From: Pelagibacteraceae bacterium AG-325-E23
Lineage (GTDB): Bacteria > Pseudomonadota > Alphaproteobacteria > Pelagibacterales > Pelagibacteraceae
DNA length: 64,000 nt
NCBI GenBank assembly: GCA_003282945.1
Contig: QBYG01000003.1
Span: 1 to 64,000, forward strand
Direction: 5' to 3'
The notes under the pieces are model-generated. The model saw only the letters and a list, made by a program, of their open reading frames with translations, did no database searches and was not told where the DNA came from. The position numbers were made by a program, and so were the translations under genes. Below, piece by piece: positions 2 through 63,483 of this stretch; position 1 is the first letter of the stretch; every line of letters starts with the position of its first letter.

Positions 2-547
2 AAATTTTTTTATAAGGAAAAGTATGATTTCAAAGATATCTTGATTAAAAAAGATGAAGTACAAATAGAAAATTGGAGTAAAAAGATTGACAACTCCAAA
101 CCTAAAGTTGGATTAGTTTGGTCGGGTTCTTTTCATGGTCCTAATCAGCCTTTTAGATCAGTACCTTTAAAAAGTTTAGACAAGATTTTATCTTTAAATA
201 TAAACTTTTATGGATTGCAAAATGAAATATGGGAAAGAGATAAGTATTATTTTGAAAATTATAATATATTAGATTTTGGAAAATATAATCTAGCAGAAAT
301 TGCTTCTATTATAGAAAATTTGGATTTAGTTATATCAGCAGACACGTCTATACTTCATCTTTCTTGTTCTCTTGATAAAGAAACCTGGGGTATTTTTAAT
401 ATATATCCAGATTGGAGATGGGGTGAGTTTGATAAAATAAACCCTTATCCTTCCTTACAAATGATTAAACAAAAAAAATTCAATCAATGGGATGATGTTG
501 CTGATGAAATATTAAAAAAATTACAACTCAAATTTAATTTAGCTTAA
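2..547 (+). CDS. C-terminal part of a TPR/glycosyltransferase-family-9-like protein (5' truncated by window edge)
   Basis: Frame is open to the left window edge; motifs KVGLVWSGSFHGPNQPFRSVPL and DLVISADTSILHLSCSLDKETWGIF resemble the C-terminal GT domain of TPR-glycosyltransferase proteins. Confidence 0.7.
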   Translation, partial: KFFYKEKYDFKDILIKKDEVQIENWSKKIDNSKPKVGLVWSGSFHGPNQPFRSVPLKSLDKILSLNINFYGLQNEIWERDKYYFENYNILDFGKYNLAEIASIIENLDLVISADTSILHLSCSLDKETWGIFNIYPDWRWGEFDKINPYPSLQMIKQKKFNQWDDVADEILKKLQLKFNLA

Positions 548-1338
548 TATTTAACAACCATACCCCATAGAGATTGTGATGGTCCATACCCTATTCGAGC
601 ATCTTCCATTTTGAGAACTCTACTATGATCAACCATCATATTTATGCCTGGACCATATATCTCTATGTATTTTGACAATACATCCTGGTCATCAGCCTCA
701 ACCATAAATTGCTTCAGCTCAAGTGGACTTATAATTTTATCAATTGTATTCCATCTATAATTTTTCTTATCAAGATTTTCTGTCAAACCCTCTGACTCTA
801 GTAAAATTTTCCATGAACCTGCCTCAAGAAATCTTTTAGATTGCATTTTAATTCTCTCAATAAATATTTCTTCCTCAATAACCTTGGAATGTGCAAACGC
901 AACACCAACCTCATTGATAACTTTTATCCCCTTGCTTGAGGCGTTTTCAATTAATCTACACATTTCGTCATCATCTAATGAACGAGCTATGCTTGAGATT
1001 TCAATAATATCAATGCCCAAACTAACAACGGTATCTAGATAATCATCAACCACTTCTTTACCACCAGATAATGCAACGTCCATAATTGGATTTCCTAGCG
1101 CAACTTGAACACTATGTTTTTTGCACGTTTCAATAAATCTTAAAAGAGATTTTTTACTCATCATTGCGCCTTGTTTTCCAGAAATCTTAAAGATATCAAC
1201 TAGGTCAGCATATGCTTCTAAGTAATCATCAATACAATTTCCCACCATTACAGGTGCTCTAACATAATTTATACCTATCTCTCGAGGTTTTTTCTTTCTT
1301 TTTATGAAAGGTAAATTTGGAAATGTAACATCAGTCAT
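544..1338 (-). CDS. Phosphosulfolactate synthase (ComA)-family protein, paralog 1
   Basis: TIM-barrel-like sequence with ComA-like segments (DDYLEAYADLVDIFKISGKQGAMM, GIDIIEISSIARSL, GIKVINEVG, WKILLESEGLTEN). ORF can extend to 1368, but Met at 1338 (MTDVTFPN) avoids overlap with the upstream gene. Confidence 0.65.
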   Translation of the reverse strand: MTDVTFPNLPFIKRKKKPREIGINYVRAPVMVGNCIDDYLEAYADLVDIFKISGKQGAMMSKKSLLRFIETCKKHSVQVALGNPIMDVALSGGKEVVDDYLDTVVSLGIDIIEISSIARSLDDDEMCRLIENASSKGIKVINEVGVAFAHSKVIEEEIFIERIKMQSKRFLEAGSWKILLESEGLTENLDKKNYRWNTIDKIISPLELKQFMVEADDQDVLSKYIEIYGPGINMMVDHSRVLKMEDARIGYGPSQSLWGMVVKY

Positions 1339-1351
1339 TATAAATTTTTTT

Positions 1352-3337
1352 TTAATTAAGCTGTCCACCTAGCCACCAGGGTAAATCGACAAATAATCCT
1401 ATCAATCCATTTGGAAACTGTAAGGTTAGCAAGGACGATAACGACCAGAGTATTACCATCAATGCAACAGAAATGCAAATTGATGACACATAAGCTTTCC
1501 TATTATGAAATAAAATAAATATATTAATAAAAAGTGCTGCAGCAATTGGAAAACCAAATATAAAATTCATTAACAAGAAACCAATAAAACTTAAATAATA
1601 AAAAAGTTGATTATTAAAGTTCCCACTAATTTCAAAAATATTTGACCGAGCAAACTTCATCAATGTATTATTTAAAAATGGTAAATTTTTTAAGTCTGCA
1701 ATTTTTACAATAAGTATAAAAACCAAGAGTGATAAAGCTATTATACTTAGGCTTATTGGAAACAAATTAGCACGATAATCTAAACTACTAGTAAACCAAA
1801 TCATTGATAGCGGAAGACAGAGTAAGATAAGTATGTAATAAATTTGAGTAAGCTTACCTTTAATAAGATCAGATCTATAGTTGTTATCAAATTTTTGTTT
1901 TGTCAATAAAACGATGGTAGCAAGACACAATATTATAAGAACTACTGAAACTGGACGAGATAAAAAACTTAAACCATACACTGCTTGAGTTTGATAGCTT
2001 AGAAGTTCAACTTTGCTTGATAAAAAGAACCCTATTAATAGTGCTGGTCTTGACCAACCAAAATTTTTAAATGTAATACCAATTATACCGAATGATAATA
2101 ATCCAATAAAATCATACCAGTCCCTATTAATATTAAATGTTGCAAAAAATATTAAACAAACCATCACAGGTGCAAGTATATAATATGGAACTAAAGTGAA
2201 TTTCGAAATTTGAGATGAAAAACCCATACAAATCCCAGCGCCCAAAATATTTGCAATAGCTAATGACCAAATCATTAGATAAGTAAGATCTAGGTTTGTC
2301 GTTACCATATCTAAACCAGGTTCAATTCCAATTAGAACAAAACCTCCAAGTAATAAAACTTTATTACCAGAACCAGGTATTCCAAAAATTAATGTTGGAA
2401 TTAATGCTCCACCCTCTTTTGCATTATTAGCAGACTCAGGTGCTATAACTCCTCGAATATCACCTTTACCAAATTGTGAAGTATCTTTTGTTGTTTGCTT
2501 TAAGTGACTATATGCAATCCAATCAACGACGGTTCCTCCTAAACCAGGTAAAGCTCCAACAAGACAACCAAGGGTAGAACATCGTAATACTAAAAACCAA
2601 TTTTTTACTACGTCCTTTAAACCTGTAAACCAACCCTTTTTGGAATTAAGTGATTTTGCAATCGATCCTTTAGAATCGAGAAGTCCTACAATTTCAGGAA
2701 TTGCAAACAATCCTAGTCCAACAACGACAAGAGGAACACCTTCTAAAAGATATAATGTATCAAATGTGTATCTTGGATCTCCTGTAATTGGAGCAGTTCC
2801 AATTGATCCAATAATTAATCCCAGAAAACAAGAGGCAATACCTTTAAATAAATTATCACCTGTAAGAGCTCCAACCATTAATAAAGCAAGCACAACTAAT
2901 AGGAACTGTTCTCCAAATCCAAAAGCCATTATTATTGGAATGGCGTAATAAATAGATATTGATAATATAAATGCCCCAAAGATACCCCCAAGCAATGAAG
3001 CGCTAAAAGCAGCGCTCAAAGCTCTTGCTGCCATACCTTTTTTAGAAAGTGGAAAACCATCCATCACTGTTGCTTGAGATCCTGCAGTGCCAGGTACTCC
3101 CATAAGCACAGCAGGAAAAGTATCTGAAGTTGTCGTAGGTGCCAGAACTCCAATCATCATTGCAAGAGCATGTGATGGCTCCATTGTAAAAACAAAAGGT
3201 AAAACAAGGGCTAAACCTGATGTTCCACCCATACCTGGAAGGATACCAACAATTAAACCAAGTAAAGTACCTGCAAATAGAAATGCTAAATGAGTAGGCT
3301 CAAAAAGTTGAAAAAGTGCAGCTAATAATTGTTCCAT
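1352..3337 (-). CDS. Tripartite tricarboxylate transporter permease, TctA-TctB fusion
   Basis: 661 aa; TctA signatures (GLIVGILPGMGGTSGLALVLPF, GVPGTAGSQATVMDGFPLSKKGMAARAL, PGLGGTVVDWIAY, ESANNAKEGGALIPTLIFGIPGSG), followed by ~150 aa of TctB-like TM segments. Confidence 0.88.
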   Translation of the reverse strand: MEQLLAALFQLFEPTHLAFLFAGTLLGLIVGILPGMGGTSGLALVLPFVFTMEPSHALAMMIGVLAPTTTSDTFPAVLMGVPGTAGSQATVMDGFPLSKKGMAARALSAAFSASLLGGIFGAFILSISIYYAIPIIMAFGFGEQFLLVVLALLMVGALTGDNLFKGIASCFLGLIIGSIGTAPITGDPRYTFDTLYLLEGVPLVVVGLGLFAIPEIVGLLDSKGSIAKSLNSKKGWFTGLKDVVKNWFLVLRCSTLGCLVGALPGLGGTVVDWIAYSHLKQTTKDTSQFGKGDIRGVIAPESANNAKEGGALIPTLIFGIPGSGNKVLLLGGFVLIGIEPGLDMVTTNLDLTYLMIWSLAIANILGAGICMGFSSQISKFTLVPYYILAPVMVCLIFFATFNINRDWYDFIGLLSFGIIGITFKNFGWSRPALLIGFFLSSKVELLSYQTQAVYGLSFLSRPVSVVLIILCLATIVLLTKQKFDNNYRSDLIKGKLTQIYYILILLCLPLSMIWFTSSLDYRANLFPISLSIIALSLLVFILIVKIADLKNLPFLNNTLMKFARSNIFEISGNFNNQLFYYLSFIGFLLMNFIFGFPIAAALFINIFILFHNRKAYVSSICISVALMVILWSLSSLLTLQFPNGLIGLFVDLPWWLGGQLN

Positions 3338-3367
3338 AAAAAAAGCTGCTAGCTAATAGCTAGCAGC
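3338..3367 (-). terminator. Intrinsic-terminator-like hairpin between tctC and tctAB
   Basis: Perfect 10-bp inverted repeat GCTGCTAGCT-aat-AGCTAGCAGC (3345-3367), followed on the minus strand by U7 (3344-3338) and then directly by ATG of the permease ORF at 3337. Confidence 0.8.
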
Positions 3368-3383
3368 ACTTTTTTTATTTGTT

Positions 3384-4457
3384 CTATTGAACTCTATATG
3401 TGAATTTATGTTTCTTTAAAGCTGCATTTAATTGCTTTTTAGTAGTATCTGAAAATACTGCAGCCTTTTTAATAATTTCACCAGCTTCTTCTCCTATGAT
3501 TAATGGAAATGGTCCAAGAGCTTTTACAGCTTTAGCCTTAAACTCTGGGTCATTTGTCATTTTAATAGCTGCATCTCTGTATGCTTTTACTATTTCATCC
3601 GATGCATCTGCTGGGAGCATCATTGCTTTAGATGCTTGAGACCAGGCAGCACCTATTGCATAGTATGCTTCTAGGTCATCACCCTCAAGTTTTTTACCAT
3701 TTACCTTCTCATACATTTCAGGAAATGTAGGTGCATTTGGTGCTAAAGGATTTCTAGAAACTGAACCATCAGCTCCAATAATTCCTAATGTCATTAAATC
3801 TACAACTTTTCCTTTTTCTATTTCAGGCTTAACTTTTTTTACATAATTAGCTGCACCATGTGAACTTAGATGAATTTCACCTCTTAGGAATGCTTGATAA
3901 CCTCCTGAAGATGAAAGACCAGGTATAGGTTTAGCTCCTTTGATACCAAGTTTCTCATATATCCATATGTGAAATAAATCTGCAGATGCAGGAGTTTTCA
4001 ATGCATAGAGAACCAATTTTCTTTCTTTAATTTTTGATAGATCGTGAGGCTCAGCTAAATCTGAACGTGTGAACCAATGAGTATTTTGCGGTAGCAAAAC
4101 TACTGGTCGGTATTCACTAAGATTATATTTAACAAGTGGATTTCCAGTCGCAACATTAACTATAACTGAAGTTGAGCATCCAAAAATAAAAGTTCCATCT
4201 GCTTTTGCATTTTTTTCAAAATAATTTGAACCTTTAATAGCTCCTCCTCCTGGTATGTGCATGATTTGGACATCAGGATTTCCAGGTAAATATTTTTTTA
4301 AGAAAGGTTGAATAAATCTTGCAAATCTACTCGTACCACCACCTTCTTTAAATGGCACAACCCATGTAACTGTTTTGCCTGCGAAATTCACATCTGCATT
4401 TCCAATGGATGCAAACGAGAATAACGACATTAATATTAATATTAGAATTTTACGCAT
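3384..4457 (-). CDS. Tripartite tricarboxylate transporter substrate-binding protein (TctC family)
   Basis: Signal peptide MRKILILILMSLFSFASIGNA; TctC-like GKTVTWVVPFKEGGGTSRFARF; strong SD AAGGGGGGAAATT before ATG; followed by the permease gene. Confidence 0.88.
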   Translation of the reverse strand: MRKILILILMSLFSFASIGNADVNFAGKTVTWVVPFKEGGGTSRFARFIQPFLKKYLPGNPDVQIMHIPGGGAIKGSNYFEKNAKADGTFIFGCSTSVIVNVATGNPLVKYNLSEYRPVVLLPQNTHWFTRSDLAEPHDLSKIKERKLVLYALKTPASADLFHIWIYEKLGIKGAKPIPGLSSSGGYQAFLRGEIHLSSHGAANYVKKVKPEIEKGKVVDLMTLGIIGADGSVSRNPLAPNAPTFPEMYEKVNGKKLEGDDLEAYYAIGAAWSQASKAMMLPADASDEIVKAYRDAAIKMTNDPEFKAKAVKALGPFPLIIGEEAGEIIKKAAVFSDTTKKQLNAALKKHKFTYRVQ

Positions 4458-4608
4458 AATTTCCCCCCTTGAGAATATTGTTAGAGGTAGTATAACTTGT
4501 TCATTATGGGTCTTTCAACTAATTATATTTTTTTATATCTCCAAGAAAACTATGAAAATGAGTATTTAGTTAGAAATTTATCTATTTGACTAATATAAAA
4601 GCAAAAAC

Positions 4609-5472
4609 ATGTTTAAAACAAAAAATTCGATATCAAAAGTATTTGATTTAAATGCTATAGAACCCAAGCCCAGAACTAAATCACAACTATGGTTGAAAGA
4701 TGTGGGTTTTGATGAAGGCCCTTGGTACCACGAAAGAATGGGACTTCGTGAATTAGAAGACTTTCTAGAGGTTGCTGGTAACAGGATTGACCATGTTAAA
4801 ATTGCTACAATGCAAGTTCTTGGACATCCAAAGGAATGGTTGGAACGTAAAAATGATCTTTACAAAAAACACTCGATAGAGCCTTACTTGGATCATGGTT
4901 ATTTTATAAAAGCTTTTAAAAAGGGAAAAGTAAATGAAGCAATTGATGTTGCGGCAGATTTAGGATTTTCTGCAATGGAATTCATGAATACATTTGGAGA
5001 CATCCCTGAAAATCAAATTAAAGCTTGGTGCAATCATGCGATTAAAAATGGAATGAATATAATTTATGAACATCATCCAGAAAGTGGATGGGATAAAACA
5101 AAAAAAAATACTCCTGCAACATTAAAACAAATTGTTGAAAGTGCTGAACCATTTTTTGAATATGGAGCATTTTCAATGCTTATTGATCATGAAGAAATTG
5201 AACTTCATGATAGTAAATCAGATGTACTAACTGGAGTGCTCGAACACTTTGGTAAAAATAAAGTTGCATTTGAAGTTACTTCACCAAAGGAAGCTGAAGT
5301 AAGGTGGTATTCAGATATACTTAATTATTTTGAACTCTTTGGTACAGATTGCAATTTAACTAATATTATGCCTAGCCAAGTAATGCTGATTGATCCATTA
5401 AGGTCTGGAGAGAGACCTGCTGAAATTTTATTTGATAAGTATCCAGAATTAGTTTCAGTTAAAGATAAATAA
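4609..5472 (+). CDS. Phosphosulfolactate synthase (ComA)-family protein, paralog 2
   Basis: Closer ComA-like pattern: ELEDFLEVAGNRIDHVKIATMQVL, GFSAMEFMNTFGDIPENQIKAWCNHAIKNGMNIIYEH, NKVAFEVTSPKEAEVRWYSDILNYFELFGTDCNLTNIMPSQVMLIDPLRSG. Confidence 0.75.
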   Translation: MFKTKNSISKVFDLNAIEPKPRTKSQLWLKDVGFDEGPWYHERMGLRELEDFLEVAGNRIDHVKIATMQVLGHPKEWLERKNDLYKKHSIEPYLDHGYFIKAFKKGKVNEAIDVAADLGFSAMEFMNTFGDIPENQIKAWCNHAIKNGMNIIYEHHPESGWDKTKKNTPATLKQIVESAEPFFEYGAFSMLIDHEEIELHDSKSDVLTGVLEHFGKNKVAFEVTSPKEAEVRWYSDILNYFELFGTDCNLTNIMPSQVMLIDPLRSGERPAEILFDKYPELVSVKDK

Positions 5473-5496: not shown

Positions 5497-6504
5497 TTAA
5501 CTCTTTGAATTATACTGAGGATGTTTTGATTGAGGTCTATTTTTATGATTTACAACGATTGATCCATCAATAACTTTAATATCATAACCCCAATTATCCC
5601 ATCCTTTCAATGATAATGGTTCACCAAGTTTGTCCTCGAGTGTTCGTGGGTAAACATAACAGCCTTCACTATCTCCATATTGAGCTCTCGCTTCTTCCAT
5701 TTTTTTTTTAACTTCCATATGCAAGTCTAATGGAACATTTAAATGTTGCCCAAGTAAGTAACTTAAATTCATATCTTTGCATGCTAAATCCATTGTAAAT
5801 CCAGCTTCATATTTTTGATTAAAAATGTGAGGCACAACTGTTTCCCACGCAAAGGAGTTTCCGGCTGAAACTCTAATAGCATCAAAAAAACTCTCCAAGT
5901 CTAATCCTGCTCTTTTAGCAATCATCATACACTCAGATGCTGCAACCATATTAGTAAATGCAAGCATGTTTGAAACAACTTTTGCAATAGCTCCTGCTCC
6001 TATTTCTCCACATAAAACAACAACCTCACCAATTGCATCCTGCAAAACTTCTTTCCAAATATTAAATATTTCTTTATCTCCACCGGCTAAACAAACCATA
6101 TTATTATTTTTTAAAGCATGAACACCTCCTGTTAGAGTAGCTTCCAACATGGAAACACCATAATTTTTTGCTTTATTTGACAATTCTTGTGTTTGTTTAA
6201 AATCAGTTGTGGATGTGTCTATCCAAATCGTGCCCGAAGATGCATTTTGTAATAAGCCATCCTCAGCATCAACAGCTTGCAAAACATGTTCTGGCTTAGG
6301 TAAACAAGTTATAACTGCACTACATTTGCCAGCAAGATCTTTGATGGAATCCGCTTTAATAATATCCTTATGAACATCATTTAGTTTGTTCTTATCAATA
6401 TCAAAGGCTACAAGGTTATACTTCTTTGATTTGTATAAATTATTTAAAATTGGTGTACCGGCGTTTCCTAAGCCAATCACCCCTATTGTTATGATATCGC
6501 TCAT
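5497..6504 (-). CDS. 3-hydroxyisobutyrate dehydrogenase-family (beta-hydroxyacid) NAD(P)-dependent oxidoreductase
   Basis: IGVIGLGNAGTPILNNL Rossmann motif; IWIDTSTTDFKQTQEL; GAGAIAKVVSNMLAFTNM. Confidence 0.85.
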   Translation of the reverse strand: MSDIITIGVIGLGNAGTPILNNLYKSKKYNLVAFDIDKNKLNDVHKDIIKADSIKDLAGKCSAVITCLPKPEHVLQAVDAEDGLLQNASSGTIWIDTSTTDFKQTQELSNKAKNYGVSMLEATLTGGVHALKNNNMVCLAGGDKEIFNIWKEVLQDAIGEVVVLCGEIGAGAIAKVVSNMLAFTNMVAASECMMIAKRAGLDLESFFDAIRVSAGNSFAWETVVPHIFNQKYEAGFTMDLACKDMNLSYLLGQHLNVPLDLHMEVKKKMEEARAQYGDSEGCYVYPRTLEDKLGEPLSLKGWDNWGYDIKVIDGSIVVNHKNRPQSKHPQYNSKS

Positions 6505-6522: not shown

Positions 6523-7302
6523 TTAAATGAATGTTGAAGATACATCTCCAAAGGCTGATGAGGTAACTTCGATTAATTTCTTTTCATTAATAGGAACAGG
6601 AAATCCATAAGCTCCTGTTAAAATTAAATCATTTTTTTTTAAGATATTATTTGTTTTTGCTTTATCTTTCACTAACCACTCTATTTCTCCAAGCATATCA
6701 AAAGGCCATTTTTTATCTATCCATTTATCGACTGCTTCATTGTCATAAACTAATTTAAGATCTGTGATTTCATTGTTGTTTGGAACCTTGTTTTCTGAAC
6801 CTAGAATAACACCAGCGTGAATTGCATTATTTGCTAAAAGTTCTGCACCATTTGGAGGATCTCCGTTAAAAACTAGATTATGTATTTCAATTAAGGGATA
6901 AATCGATTGAATAGACTCTAATATATAATCAAATGAAACTAATTCTGGATTGATATCTCTATTAAGTGTAACGCCAAATTCTGCTTCCATAGCTGGATTA
7001 GAATAATCTTTTTTGTTAAGTTCCACTCCACTTTGATGCAGTTCATTTTTCCAAAGAAATCCACTTGCTGGATGAGTAAATCCCATTTTTTTTTGAGTAT
7101 CTTTAGATAAACACCCTATTTTATAACCAATAATTTCTTCCCCTCTTTTAATTCTTAAATCAGTAACCTTAGATTGGATTATCAAAGCATCTTGGTTGCT
7201 TACTTTTGCTTTATTTTTAAATATTTGGCTAGGATTTTTTGCATCATAATCTTCAAGTATTTTAAATGAATATGTATCTAATTCCTGTTTAGATAACGGC
7301 AT
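6523..7302 (-). CDS. 2-keto-4-pentenoate hydratase / 2-oxo-acid hydratase-decarboxylase family (MhpD-like)
   Basis: GYKIGCLSKDTQKKMGFTHPASGFLWKNEL, AMEAEFGVTLNRDI, NNAIHAGVILGS. Confidence 0.75.
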   Translation of the reverse strand: MPLSKQELDTYSFKILEDYDAKNPSQIFKNKAKVSNQDALIIQSKVTDLRIKRGEEIIGYKIGCLSKDTQKKMGFTHPASGFLWKNELHQSGVELNKKDYSNPAMEAEFGVTLNRDINPELVSFDYILESIQSIYPLIEIHNLVFNGDPPNGAELLANNAIHAGVILGSENKVPNNNEITDLKLVYDNEAVDKWIDKKWPFDMLGEIEWLVKDKAKTNNILKKNDLILTGAYGFPVPINEKKLIEVTSSAFGDVSSTFI

Positions 7303-7902
7303 TTAATTGCAAGGCTCTCTGTAGACTTGAAGTATTTTTTCACTCAAAAATTTATTCTTTAAATTTTGTAAATCATTATCATTTAAAAGATAACAATAAG
7401 TTCTTGAATTTAGCTTCATTAAATCCTCTAAATTCTTATTATTTTTTATTGGTAAAAATGTTCCTGCATACCAACTTTCTTGTGATAAAGTTGCAAATGA
7501 AAAAGGTTTATTTCTAGTAAGATATCCTTCGATTTCTTGAGTTGCCTGTGGAGAATAAAATGTCATATAATGATTTTGATTTAATACCTCAAATTCATAC
7601 CTCATAGTATCAATTTCATATCTCTCAAGCATCCAAGATTGCATATCGCCACTTTTTCCATAATGGGCAGGCTGAACGAAAGAAACAGTTTTGTCATCAG
7701 GATTTGAAAAGGTTTTTTTAAACCATTTATATCCTCCATATTGAATGATTTGGCCAAAAATTTTATCTTCATCATAAAAAATGATCATTGATGCTTTTGC
7801 ATCTTTTTCATAAAAAAATGAGTAACTACTAATCTCTGCAAACAAAAAATTTGGGAATAATAATAAAATATATAATTTTATTAAGAATCTTTTCATTACC
7901 AA
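7303..7902 (-). CDS. Hypothetical secreted protein
   Basis: ORF with N-terminal signal-like segment FLIKLYILLLFPNFLFA; tightly packed with neighbours. Confidence 0.6.
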   Translation of the reverse strand: MVMKRFLIKLYILLLFPNFLFAEISSYSFFYEKDAKASMIIFYDEDKIFGQIIQYGGYKWFKKTFSNPDDKTVSFVQPAHYGKSGDMQSWMLERYEIDTMRYEFEVLNQNHYMTFYSPQATQEIEGYLTRNKPFSFATLSQESWYAGTFLPIKNNKNLEDLMKLNSRTYCYLLNDNDLQNLKNKFLSEKILQVYREPCN

Positions 7903-60086: not shown

Positions 60087-60506
60087 ATGATTTCTAAATT
60101 TAATAACATTTTCTACTTAATTGTATTTCTTGCACATTTTATAGCGATAACCGCATATTGTTTTCAAACAATTGTTGGAACCAAAAAATTTATGGATAAG
60201 TTTGGTATAGATCATAGTGCAGCTGTTATGGTTAGATTTGTTGGAGCGCTAATGCTTGGTTGGGTAATAATGGCTATTTATATATTGTTTGTTAGACCAA
60301 ATGGAATTGAAGGTACTTGGGCATTTTTTAATTTAATATTTATCATACATGCATGCGTTTTAGGAACAAATTTCTACTCGCTTAAGATTGATAAAACTGG
60401 TCTAAATGAAAAAGTTACAAATGAAGGGATTATAGCGCCAACAGTGTTTCTAATAATGATGGCTATACTTTGTTACGGTTTGTCAGATAAAATTTATATT
60501 ACTTAG
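60087..60506 (+). CDS. Hypothetical membrane protein
   Basis: 139-aa ORF with ~4 TM segments. Confidence 0.6.
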   Translation: MISKFNNIFYLIVFLAHFIAITAYCFQTIVGTKKFMDKFGIDHSAAVMVRFVGALMLGWVIMAIYILFVRPNGIEGTWAFFNLIFIIHACVLGTNFYSLKIDKTGLNEKVTNEGIIAPTVFLIMMAILCYGLSDKIYIT

Positions 60507-62008
60507 CCCTTAGTCTTTTTAAACATAGTTTTATATATATGCCAAACTACAATTAATATTGTGGTTAACAAAATACATGTAGTAAGAGTTCTATCCCATA
60601 AAAATTCCCAAGATCCATTACTTAACAATAAAGATCTTCTTAAATTCTCTTCCATTAATCCACCTAGAACAAATGCAAGAATTAATGGTGGCATCGGAAA
60701 ATCATAAAGCCGCATAAAAGTTGCAACAACTGCAATTCCTATCATTAAGTAAATGTCAAAGTTATTAAATGACATTACATAAATTCCAGTAATAGAAAAA
60801 AATAGGATTAATGGGATTAGATAATTTTTTGGAACAGCTAAAATTCTTGCAATGTAAGGTATGAGAGGTAAGTTTAAAATTAATAATATCACCATCCCAA
60901 TATACATTGACATAATTATGGACCAAAAAATCTCGGGATTTGTCATGTACAATCTTGGTCCAGGCTGAACTCCAAAACCTAATAAAGCCCCTAGCATAAC
61001 TGCAGTGGTTCCACTCCCGGGAATACCTAAAGTAAGCATCGGAACAAATGATCCTGAACATGCTGCATTATTTGCTGTTTCTGGAGCTGATAAACCATTA
61101 ACACTGCCTTTACCAAATTTTTCTTTTTCCTCGTCGTTCACTATATTTCTCTCCATTCCGTAAGCTAAAAAAGAAGCAATAGTCGCTCCTGCTCCCGGTA
61201 AAACTCCAATTAAAAAACCAATTACAGATGATCTAGGGATTGTCTTATACAATTTGGTTCTTTCTTCCTTATTTATTTTAATTGAACCAAGTTCTGTTAA
61301 TGAAACTTGTTTAGCAGCACTAGTAGGATCATTTCTTTTCAAGATTATAGTTAATGCTTCACTCATTGCAAAAGTTGCCATAACAACAAGAACAAAACTG
61401 ATACCATCAGTTAAATTCATATTGTTAAATGTAAATCTTGTAATATCAGATAAGCTATCTTGACCAACGGATGCTAGCATTAATCCTAGAACTACCATCA
61501 TCATAGCTTTTAAAAACTGACCCTTTGAAGAAAAAGCAGCAATAGCTGTCAGGCCTAAAATCATTAACGCAAAATAATCAGGCGATCGAAATGACAAACT
61601 TACTTTCGATAAACTTGGAGCCAAAAATAACAAATAAATTGCTGACAATGTACCACCAGCAAATGAACTCCAAGCAGCAATTGCTAACGCTTTACCTGCC
61701 TTACCTTGTTGTGCCATTGGATAGCCATCAAAAGAAGTTGCAACCGTACCTGGAACACCAGGTGCATTTAATAAAATTGATGAGGTTGAACCTCCAAATA
61801 CCGCTCCATAATAAACACCTGCCATTAAAATTAAACCAGTTGCTGGATCAAAACCATAAGTAATAGGTATCATTAAAGCAATTGCTGTCATTGGACCAAG
61901 TCCTGGTAACATTCCAATTATTGTTCCAAAAAAACATCCCAGCATTACCATTAAAATATTTTGGAGAGTAAGTGCTGTTGTTAAACCAATTAGAATTCCT
62001 TCAATCAT
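60503..62008 (-). CDS. Tripartite tricarboxylate transporter permease TctA
   Basis: GCFFGTIIGMLPGLGPMTAIALMIPITYG, LLNAPGVPGTVATSFDGYPMAQQGKAGKALAIAA, GFLIGVLPGAGATIASFLAYGMER, ESANNA-like ETANNAACSGSFVPMLTLGIPGSGTTAVMLGAL. Confidence 0.96.
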   Translation of the reverse strand: MIEGILIGLTTALTLQNILMVMLGCFFGTIIGMLPGLGPMTAIALMIPITYGFDPATGLILMAGVYYGAVFGGSTSSILLNAPGVPGTVATSFDGYPMAQQGKAGKALAIAAWSSFAGGTLSAIYLLFLAPSLSKVSLSFRSPDYFALMILGLTAIAAFSSKGQFLKAMMMVVLGLMLASVGQDSLSDITRFTFNNMNLTDGISFVLVVMATFAMSEALTIILKRNDPTSAAKQVSLTELGSIKINKEERTKLYKTIPRSSVIGFLIGVLPGAGATIASFLAYGMERNIVNDEEKEKFGKGSVNGLSAPETANNAACSGSFVPMLTLGIPGSGTTAVMLGALLGFGVQPGPRLYMTNPEIFWSIIMSMYIGMVILLILNLPLIPYIARILAVPKNYLIPLILFFSITGIYVMSFNNFDIYLMIGIAVVATFMRLYDFPMPPLILAFVLGGLMEENLRRSLLLSNGSWEFLWDRTLTTCILLTTILIVVWHIYKTMFKKTKG

Positions 62009-62475
62009 CCCATAACTCCAATTGATTGTAAAAATGGATCTCTTAAATAAATATCAAGAACGCCATGAAGCAAATACATAAAAGCTGCTACAAAAGGAAA
62101 AGACAATAGGAACATTAAGACCCATCTTCTCTCTCCTAAAAAATAATATGATGAGAACAAAAATAATGATGTAGTTAAAAAATAACCAACTTCTAAAATT
62201 GTAGCACCATAAATTATCGCAATAACAATAAGTATCGCTGTTTTTTTATATTCTAAAGTTTTATGTTGAACTTTTATTGTATTTGGATCTGGTAAAATTA
62301 GTTTTAATCCTGAAAAAAAAAGGCCTGCATAACCTAGATAAATTGGGAATGTTCTTGCATTAAATGGTGCATTTTCATCAAATGCAAAAACTTGAATTTG
62401 ATATGCTGTATATAAATAAAATGCTGAAAATATAAAAAAGAGCAGTGATATAACTTTTGTAGTATTTATATTCAC
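62005..62475 (-). CDS. Tripartite tricarboxylate transporter small subunit TctB
   Basis: 156 aa, 4 TM; FNARTFPIYLGYAGLFFSGLKLIL; between tctC and tctA; GTG start. Confidence 0.88.
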   Translation of the reverse strand: MNINTTKVISLLFFIFSAFYLYTAYQIQVFAFDENAPFNARTFPIYLGYAGLFFSGLKLILPDPNTIKVQHKTLEYKKTAILIVIAIIYGATILEVGYFLTTSLFLFSSYYFLGERRWVLMFLLSFPFVAAFMYLLHGVLDIYLRDPFLQSIGVMG

Positions 62476-62480
62476 TGCTC
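62434..62480 (-). terminator. Intrinsic-terminator-like hairpin overlapping the tctB start
   Basis: GAGCAGTGA-TATAA (62440-62453) pairs with TTATA-T-TCACTGCTC (62466-62480), one bulged base, 12-nt loop; U6 on minus strand (62439-62434); GTG start codon of tctB (62475-62473) lies within the stem. Confidence 0.75.
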
Positions 62481-62502
62481 TAATATTTAATAATCGTTAA
62501 GA

Positions 62503-63483
62503 TTATATAACTCCTAATTTCTTCATAAGAGCTGTCATTTCTTCAGTTTGTTTTTCTAAGAAAGAGACAAACTTACCTTCTGGATTGTAAATATTAACCC
62601 ATGCATTTCTTGCTCTAACAGTTTCCCATTCAGAAGTTTTTTGTACATCGCCTAACATTTTAGCAATTTTAGCTTTATCAGCACTGCTCATTCCTGGAGG
62701 CCCAAAGAACCCTCTCCAGTTAACAAATTGTACATCATAACCCTGTTCTTTTAGAGTTGGTGCATCTGGAGCATCAGAAACTCTTGAAGGGGCTGTAATA
62801 CCAATAATTCTTACTTGGTCTCGAGCGCCCATAAGTTCACCTAAACCTGTAGAAATAATTTGTGTTTCTCCAGATAAAAGTCCAGCTAAAGCTTTTCCAC
62901 CTGCATCATAAGGAATGTATGCTACATCATTTGGATTAGCACCAGCAGCTTGGAAAGCTAAGGCACCAATTAAATGGTCCATACTTCCTCTTACTGATCC
63001 ACCAGCCATTTTAATAGAGCTTGCATCTTTTTTATATGCATTAACTACATCTTCAAAATTTTTATATGGTGAATTTTTTGCAACTGCTATAGCACCGTAA
63101 TCTCCAATAACACCAGCTATTGGCACAACATCTTTATAAGATAAAGTTCCACTTCCACTTACATAACCTTTGTGTCTTGTAATTGATCTTAATACTAATG
63201 GTGTTGATTGAACTAAGACTGTATTTGCAGGCTTATTATTAATCATGTAAGCTAACGCCTTTCCACCACCACCACCTGACATATTTTCAAATGATGCACT
63301 TTTTAACATACCAGCTTTTGTTAAAGCTTCTCCAGTACCTCTAGCAGTTCCATCCCAACCGCCACCAGCACCACCCCCAATTACAAAATGCAATTTATCA
63401 ATTGCTATTGAACTAGTTGCTGTTGCTGAAAATATAAGGATTGCTGAGAATAAAACTGAAATTATTGATTTAATTAGTTTCAT
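62503..63483 (-). CDS. Tripartite tricarboxylate transporter substrate-binding protein TctC
   Basis: Signal peptide; LHFVIGGGAGGGWDGTARGTGEALTKAGML; SFENMSGGGGGKALAYMI; SD AGGAGAAAAT before ATG. Confidence 0.94.
   Translation of the reverse strand: MKLIKSIISVLFSAILIFSATATSSIAIDKLHFVIGGGAGGGWDGTARGTGEALTKAGMLKSASFENMSGGGGGKALAYMINNKPANTVLVQSTPLVLRSITRHKGYVSGSGTLSYKDVVPIAGVIGDYGAIAVAKNSPYKNFEDVVNAYKKDASSIKMAGGSVRGSMDHLIGALAFQAAGANPNDVAYIPYDAGGKALAGLLSGETQIISTGLGELMGARDQVRIIGITAPSRVSDAPDAPTLKEQGYDVQFVNWRGFFGPPGMSSADKAKIAKMLGDVQKTSEWETVRARNAWVNIYNPEGKFVSFLEKQTEEMTALMKKLGVI

Follow-up and report, generated by a model that had tools for sequence, protein, structure and literature searches.

Organization of the cassette

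We analyzed a window of 64,000 nucleotides, the whole stretch of DNA considered here, from contig QBYG01000003.1 of Pelagibacteraceae bacterium AG-325-E23. In this window, two genes of the ComA superfamily, which we call P1 and P2, bracket the genes of a tripartite tricarboxylate transporter (TTT), and both the positions and the bracketing are as given in a preliminary description of this DNA. The minus-strand operon runs from the gene of the substrate-binding protein (SBP) through a fused tctAB gene to P1, with a gap of 13 bp between the last two, and P2 is transcribed divergently (Table 1). Read at full length, the open reading frame (ORF) of P1 begins at an upstream GTG (544-1368), but every relative begins at the internal ATG, and for this reason we set the start at 1338. 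A translational overlap of P1 with tctAB was considered and rejected once the relatives had placed the start at this position. P1 and P2 are ∼22% identical, which bears out the strong divergence previously claimed for the pair, and a search of the whole host genome gave no third PF02679 copy.

The match of the fused permease to PF01970 (TctA) covers residues 17 to 434; the C-terminal part beyond residue 434 is of TctB-like length and has no Pfam TctB match. The SBP is 33 to 38% identical, over 82 to 90% of its length, to annotated plasmid-borne TTT binding proteins. It has no Pfam match and matches a TctC structure weakly (E value of 0.0024). The interval between the SBP gene and tctAB holds a hairpin followed by a T-run. 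In the other genera that we checked (loci L122, L124, L125, L131, and L132) the hairpin lies at the corresponding place but its stem differs in sequence, and because the position is kept while the stems change, we read it as a device that probably lowers expression of the permease relative to the SBP.

Table 1. Features of the cassette and of the adjoining genes, with their positions in the window
Feature	Position	Strand	Evidence or remark
P1, ComA-superfamily TIM barrel, 264 aa	544-1338	minus	PF02679, 161.5 bits; terminal gene of the transporter operon
TTT permease, 661 aa, fusion of TctA with a C-terminal membrane part of TctB-like length	1352-3337	minus	PF01970, 399 bits
Conserved terminator-like hairpin and T-run	3338-3383	minus	RNA fold, -19.3 kcal/mol, z of -4.1
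TTT periplasmic SBP, 357 aa	3384-4457	minus	Identity to annotated TTT binding proteins (see text)
Divergent promoter region between the SBP gene and P2	4458-4608	no strand	No LacI-type gene here, unlike in most other alphaproteobacterial cassettes, which have one between the SBP gene and P2
P2, second ComA-superfamily TIM barrel, 287 aa	4609-5472	plus	PF02679, 139.4 bits
Beta-hydroxyacid dehydrogenase, tartronate-semialdehyde/threonate dehydrogenase type	5497-6504	minus	NF008592, 165.6 bits, below cut-off
2-Keto-4-pentenoate hydratase-like protein	6523-7302	minus	TIGR02312, 74 bits, below cut-off

Comparison of P1 and P2 with ComA

ComA catalyzes the Mg2+-dependent addition of sulfite to phosphoenolpyruvate (PEP) through an enolate-type species. 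In the hidden Markov model (HMM) search that had been set beforehand as a check of ComA membership, both P1 and P2 matched PF02679 far above the gathering cut-off of 25.2 bits (hmmscan). AlphaFold gave a confident barrel for each protein (pLDDT of 83.8 for P1 and 88.7 for P2), and ComA structures headed the Foldseek matches, 1u83 and 1qwg for P1 and 9cm1, 1qwg, and 1u83 for P2, with a broad fall to generic TIM barrels below them. The ComA barrel pattern recognized earlier in both proteins is genuine. A homology to sugar 3-epimerases was also considered, but the profile matches reached E values of only 0.002 to 0.009 and the Foldseek signal was that of a generic TIM barrel, and we did not use it as evidence.

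P1 and P2 nevertheless fail the equivalog model TIGR03849, with 74 and 62.2 bits against a cut-off of 280. In the alignment, both proteins agree with true ComA in the strand 2 barrel Lys and in the Glu residues of strands 4 and 5, and each of them also has a Glu on strand 7. The three motifs of ComA-clade sequences, W-G-T (W/F-G-T after the barrel Lys), E-x-R, and EAPxK, are gone from both proteins; at these positions P1 reads KISGKQ, ESEG, and EADDQ, and P2 reads KIATMQ, DHEE, and EVTSP.

A tree of 47 sequences places neither protein in the clade of true ComA, which unites the Methanocaldococcus sequence, Bacillus ComA/YitD, and the ComB-linked genes in five rows with a support of 99/98. P1 (100/99) nests in a clade in which all other sampled members adjoin MmgE/PrpD genes, and P2 (100/100) forms a separate long-branch clade. 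We therefore consider the cassette to join two subfamilies, and reject a recent local duplication as their origin; the word paralogs, used for them at first, is acceptable in the broad family sense but does not describe sister sequences. ComB (PF04029) was found in none of the 13 cassette-bearing genomes, the window's own genome being 82% complete, in keeping with the earlier remark that no ComB was visible.

It is almost certain that the name phosphosulfolactate synthase is wrong for P1 and P2 and that both subfamilies do something else. Their Pfam family and fold would suit an ordinary synthase working toward sulfolactate or coenzyme M, but equivalog scores this far below the cut-off, a true ComA clade that excludes them, the missing ComB, and the linkage to an importer make such a role extremely improbable. 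The same observations, together with the loss of ComA-specific residues and the conservation of the transporter linkage, uphold the previous proposal that the family has been repurposed alongside a TTT importer.

A ComA-like gene adjacent or close to an MmgE/PrpD-family gene was seen in haloarchaea, Salinibacter, Methylosinus, and other alphaproteobacteria (L034, L035, L038, L040, L082, L069, L084, and L085), a pairing that is apparently recurrent and unexplained. On a plasmid of Natrinema halophilum (L039, 24158-36469) a ComA-like gene lies amid a TAXI-TRAP transporter, two LLM flavin oxidoreductases, an aldehyde dehydrogenase, a TauE/SafE exporter, and acyl-CoA genes. Here and below, neighboring genes that lack an HMM scan were named by eye.

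Distribution and gene partners of the cassette

Full-strength matches were found in 3 of 121 genomes in a genus sample and in 12 of 397 in an order sample, all from one genus. The divergent arrangement of P2 and SBP-TctAB-P1 is unbroken in each of the 12 SAR11 genomes in which a contig spans it, and the contig of the 13th stops inside tctAB. Identity to the window across the SAR11 cassettes is 97 to 100% for the SBP, 94 to 99% for TctAB, 91 to 94% for P1, and 83 to 99% for P2. The flanking genes vary from strain to strain, for which reason we liken the cassette to an island. The median ratios of nonsynonymous to synonymous substitution rates are 0.056 (P1), 0.066 (P2), 0.049 (SBP), and 0.040 (TctAB), which indicates strong purifying selection on each of the four genes.

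A search with P2 across 84,980 genomes returned 47 loci, which beyond Pelagibacteraceae belong to SAR116, unclassified alphaproteobacterial single cells, Rhodobacteraceae, Ruegeria, Rhodobiaceae, and Rhizobium. A LacI-family gene, absent from the SAR11 cassettes, directly precedes P2 in 12 of the 14 non-SAR11 loci; the complete set with SBP, TctAB, and P1 is present in 9 of these 14, and in 3 more the contig is too short to judge. TctAB and the SBP of a Rhodobacteraceae metagenome-assembled genome are each 85% identical to those of SAR11, and integrase-like genes (named by eye) lie close to three non-SAR11 cassette loci. This identity across lineages and the nearby integrase-like genes suggest that the cassette moves horizontally; scans of IMG/VR for viral carriage gave no relative. 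P1 itself occurs in two forms (L128 1595-2404, L130 9937-10746, and L134 13480-14289). At L128, P1 is just 41% identical to the P1 of the window despite 85% for TctAB and the SBP, and this divergent form is the one that occurs with UxuA.

At four loci outside SAR11, genes for acid-sugar enzymes accompany the cassette or P2. In Ruegeria sp. HKCCD8929 (L130), where the SBP gene occupies 6642-7655, the array LacI-P2-SBP-TctAB-P1 continues into genes for glucuronate isomerase UxaC (572.6 bits, with the cut-off at 387), a UxuB-like fructuronate-reductase-like protein (381 bits, under its cut-off of 603), and mannonate dehydratase UxuA (460.6 bits against 199.55), and a gene for a KdgK-like kinase (252 bits, under its cut-off) lies on the opposite side of the cassette. 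UxuA comes after P1 at L128, and at L135 UxaC is close to LacI, a sugar ATP-binding cassette (ABC) transporter, and P2. In Rhizobium (L136), P2 is accompanied by a sugar ABC transporter and by 3-oxo-tetronate kinase and 3-oxo-tetronate-4-phosphate decarboxylase, both enzymes scoring above their cut-offs, and in Allorhizobium ampelinum P2 lies within a sugar ABC operon. None of the papers searched tied phosphosulfolactate synthase to TTT, MmgE, or SAR11, and its sole joint match with glucuronate was an unrelated barley transcriptome.

In SAR11, orthologs of the dehydrogenase next to P2, at 84% identity or more, were confined to genomes with the cassette (5 of 13 and one remnant, versus 0 of 17 others), and it is probably an accessory gene of the SAR11 version of the cassette. 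A stop interrupts the gene in one SAR11 genome (L078 6304-7200), and a second genome (G901:C3:142515-142724) keeps no more than a remnant of it, as if it were in the process of being lost. The 2-keto-4-pentenoate hydratase-like gene, which is close to the cassette in some SAR11 genomes and truncated in one, is a weaker candidate for an accessory gene. Away from the cassette, some SAR11 genomes carry an acid-sugar island with galactarate-dehydratase-like, IlvD-type dehydratase, tartronate-semialdehyde-reductase-like, and tripartite ATP-independent periplasmic (TRAP) transporter genes. The island is present in 10 of 13 cassette genomes (11 with a fragment) and in 2 of 12 cassette-free genomes (p of ∼0.005 or 0.001 by Fisher's test, with kinship ignored).

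A gene resembling that of glucosyl-3-phosphoglycerate synthase and one for a phosphatase, both named by eye, adjoin the cassette in six SAR11 genomes (L011, L071, L074, L076, L079, and L080). The window also holds a second, unrelated TTT system at 60503-63483, with TctA, TctB, and binding-protein-like ORFs likewise named by eye.

Candidate substrates and proposed role

In our proposal, to which we give a probability of roughly one half, the cassette moves horizontally and serves both the uptake of a carboxylated sugar and its entry into catabolism; the sugar would most likely be an acid of the hexuronate type or something closely derived from one. An acidic sugar is preferred to a sulfonate because the cassette in relatives adjoins glucuronate-degradation genes. 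Several observations weigh against the proposal. Acid-sugar partners occur in just four independent non-SAR11 loci, UxaC and UxuA were not found in the SAR11 cassette genomes, and shared ancestry alone may produce the correlation with the acid-sugar island. In addition, the sister clade of P1 is linked to MmgE/PrpD, the family of 2-methylcitrate dehydratase and cis-aconitate decarboxylase, and the plasmid-borne relatives of the SBP include some that adjoin the gene for 4-oxalomesaconate tautomerase or the tricarballylate genes TcuAB. These last two points would be expected if the TTT imported a citrate-like acid (of the aconitate, tricarballylate, or citramalate type) and P1 and P2 were C-C lyases or isomerases, and other alphaproteobacterial ComA-like genes adjoin PrpF, TcuA, and TTT genes. 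Among 40 mixed ComA-family loci, which are not a random sample because those found with P2 are included, a TctA gene was present in 16 and an MmgE/PrpD gene in 13 within the stretch examined. MmgE, PrpF, and Tcu genes were, however, in none of the fetched non-SAR11 loci with both P1 and P2, and the recurrent enzyme partners of that cassette are UxaC and UxuA. A tricarboxylate or dicarboxylate is a serious rival, albeit an unlikely one.

A sulfonate substrate appears quite improbable. ComA adds sulfite to PEP, and P1 or P2 could reverse this reaction on an unphosphorylated compound and release sulfite if the TTT brought in sulfolactate or another C3 sulfonate like it. Through AprA and Xsc, the host is able to use sulfite and sulfoacetaldehyde, and the ComA-like gene of Natrinema adjoins that of a TauE/SafE exporter. 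Transport of sulfolactate by the TTT system SlcHFG is listed in a published table (PMC5812351). Against this, no ComB, SuyAB, Xsc, or TauE was recognized beside the cassette in the loci read, the Arg and Lys of true ComA (E-x-R and EAPxK) are lost from P1 and P2, and SuyB-type copies occur in cassette-free SAR11 genomes as well. In one SAR11 genome (L148 2802-10170, G930:C4), a SuyAB-like pair adjoins Xsc (970 bits, cut-off of 676) and AprA (997 bits, cut-off of 642) as a compact module for sulfonate and sulfite oxidation, away from the cassette. With this module separate and independent of the cassette, with neither ComB nor sulfonate genes as neighbors, and with hexuronate genes as the recurrent partners elsewhere, the C-S lyase acting on a sulfonate that the preliminary description had put forward is not favored. 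The TTT may still import a sulfonate, but no observation connects P1 and P2 with sulfite. Its idea of repurposing with a TTT importer stands, and its looser wording, an aldolase acting on another C3 or C4 acid, may still apply.

If the substrate is an acid sugar, the SBP and the fused TctAB would import it, and the cytoplasmic steps would fall to P2 and P1 as repurposed enzymes of the ComA-barrel type, that is, as divalent-metal-dependent lyases, epimerases, or isomerases. They would abstract a proton adjacent to the carboxylate and stabilize the resulting enolate, as ComA chemistry does on PEP. The retained Lys and carboxylates and the loss of candidate anion-binding residues fit barrels that still abstract carboxylate-adjacent protons, on a different substrate. 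The class of substrate, the metal, the type of reaction, and the order of P2 and P1 we infer; the reaction may be that of an epimerase, an isomerase, a beta-eliminase, or a retro-aldolase. In Ruegeria, the product would feed hexuronate catabolism via UxaC, UxuB, UxuA, and KdgK, whereas in SAR11 it would have to feed another acid-sugar route, perhaps via the adjacent beta-hydroxyacid dehydrogenase. It is possible, although we hold this more specific proposal only tentatively, that P1 and P2 are two new ComA-superfamily activities forming an undescribed entry into the catabolism of hexuronates or related acid sugars, for instance, by metal-dependent epimerization or beta-elimination of a uronate derivative, and that this entry, together with a TTT of its own, moves between the SAR11, SAR116, and roseobacter lineages.

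Annotations as phosphosulfolactate synthase are widespread in marine and plant-associated bacteria and in haloarchaea, and the name readily suggests a role in sulfonate or coenzyme M metabolism. At the present locus, two ComA-family subfamilies are tied to an importer in bacteria that rank among the most abundant of the ocean, and the Ruegeria cluster offers culturable material for tests of function. If the acid-sugar reading is true, uronate metabolism gains a new enzyme superfamily and SAR11 a new carbon source.

The cassette can be compared with several known systems. TTT transporters that import uronate or aldarate substrates have precedents in Vibrio C42, for alginate oligosaccharides (PMC13390454), and in Halomonas, listed for galactarate and glucarate (PMC5812351), although ComA-family enzymes do not figure in the descriptions of those loci. 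The UxaC-UxuB-UxuA pathway for hexuronates lies downstream of the cassette in Ruegeria, and UxuA or UxaC is near P1 or P2 in two more genomes; P1 and P2 are not known members of this pathway, and the SAR11 cassette genomes have neither UxaC nor UxuA. With ComA of Methanocaldococcus jannaschii (1QWG) and Bacillus subtilis (1U83), P1 and P2 have PF02679, the TIM-barrel fold, and the conserved Lys and Glu positions in common, and they differ in missing the equivalog cut-off and the three motifs, in lying outside the ComA clade, in having no ComB, and in being linked to a TTT importer. The nearest relatives of P1 are the MmgE/PrpD-linked ComA-like proteins of haloarchaea, Salinibacter, and Methylosinus, at 31 to 36% identity and with the motifs ESEG and VDxS(Q/R) in common; their partner is MmgE/PrpD, whereas P1 is paired with P2 and a TTT.

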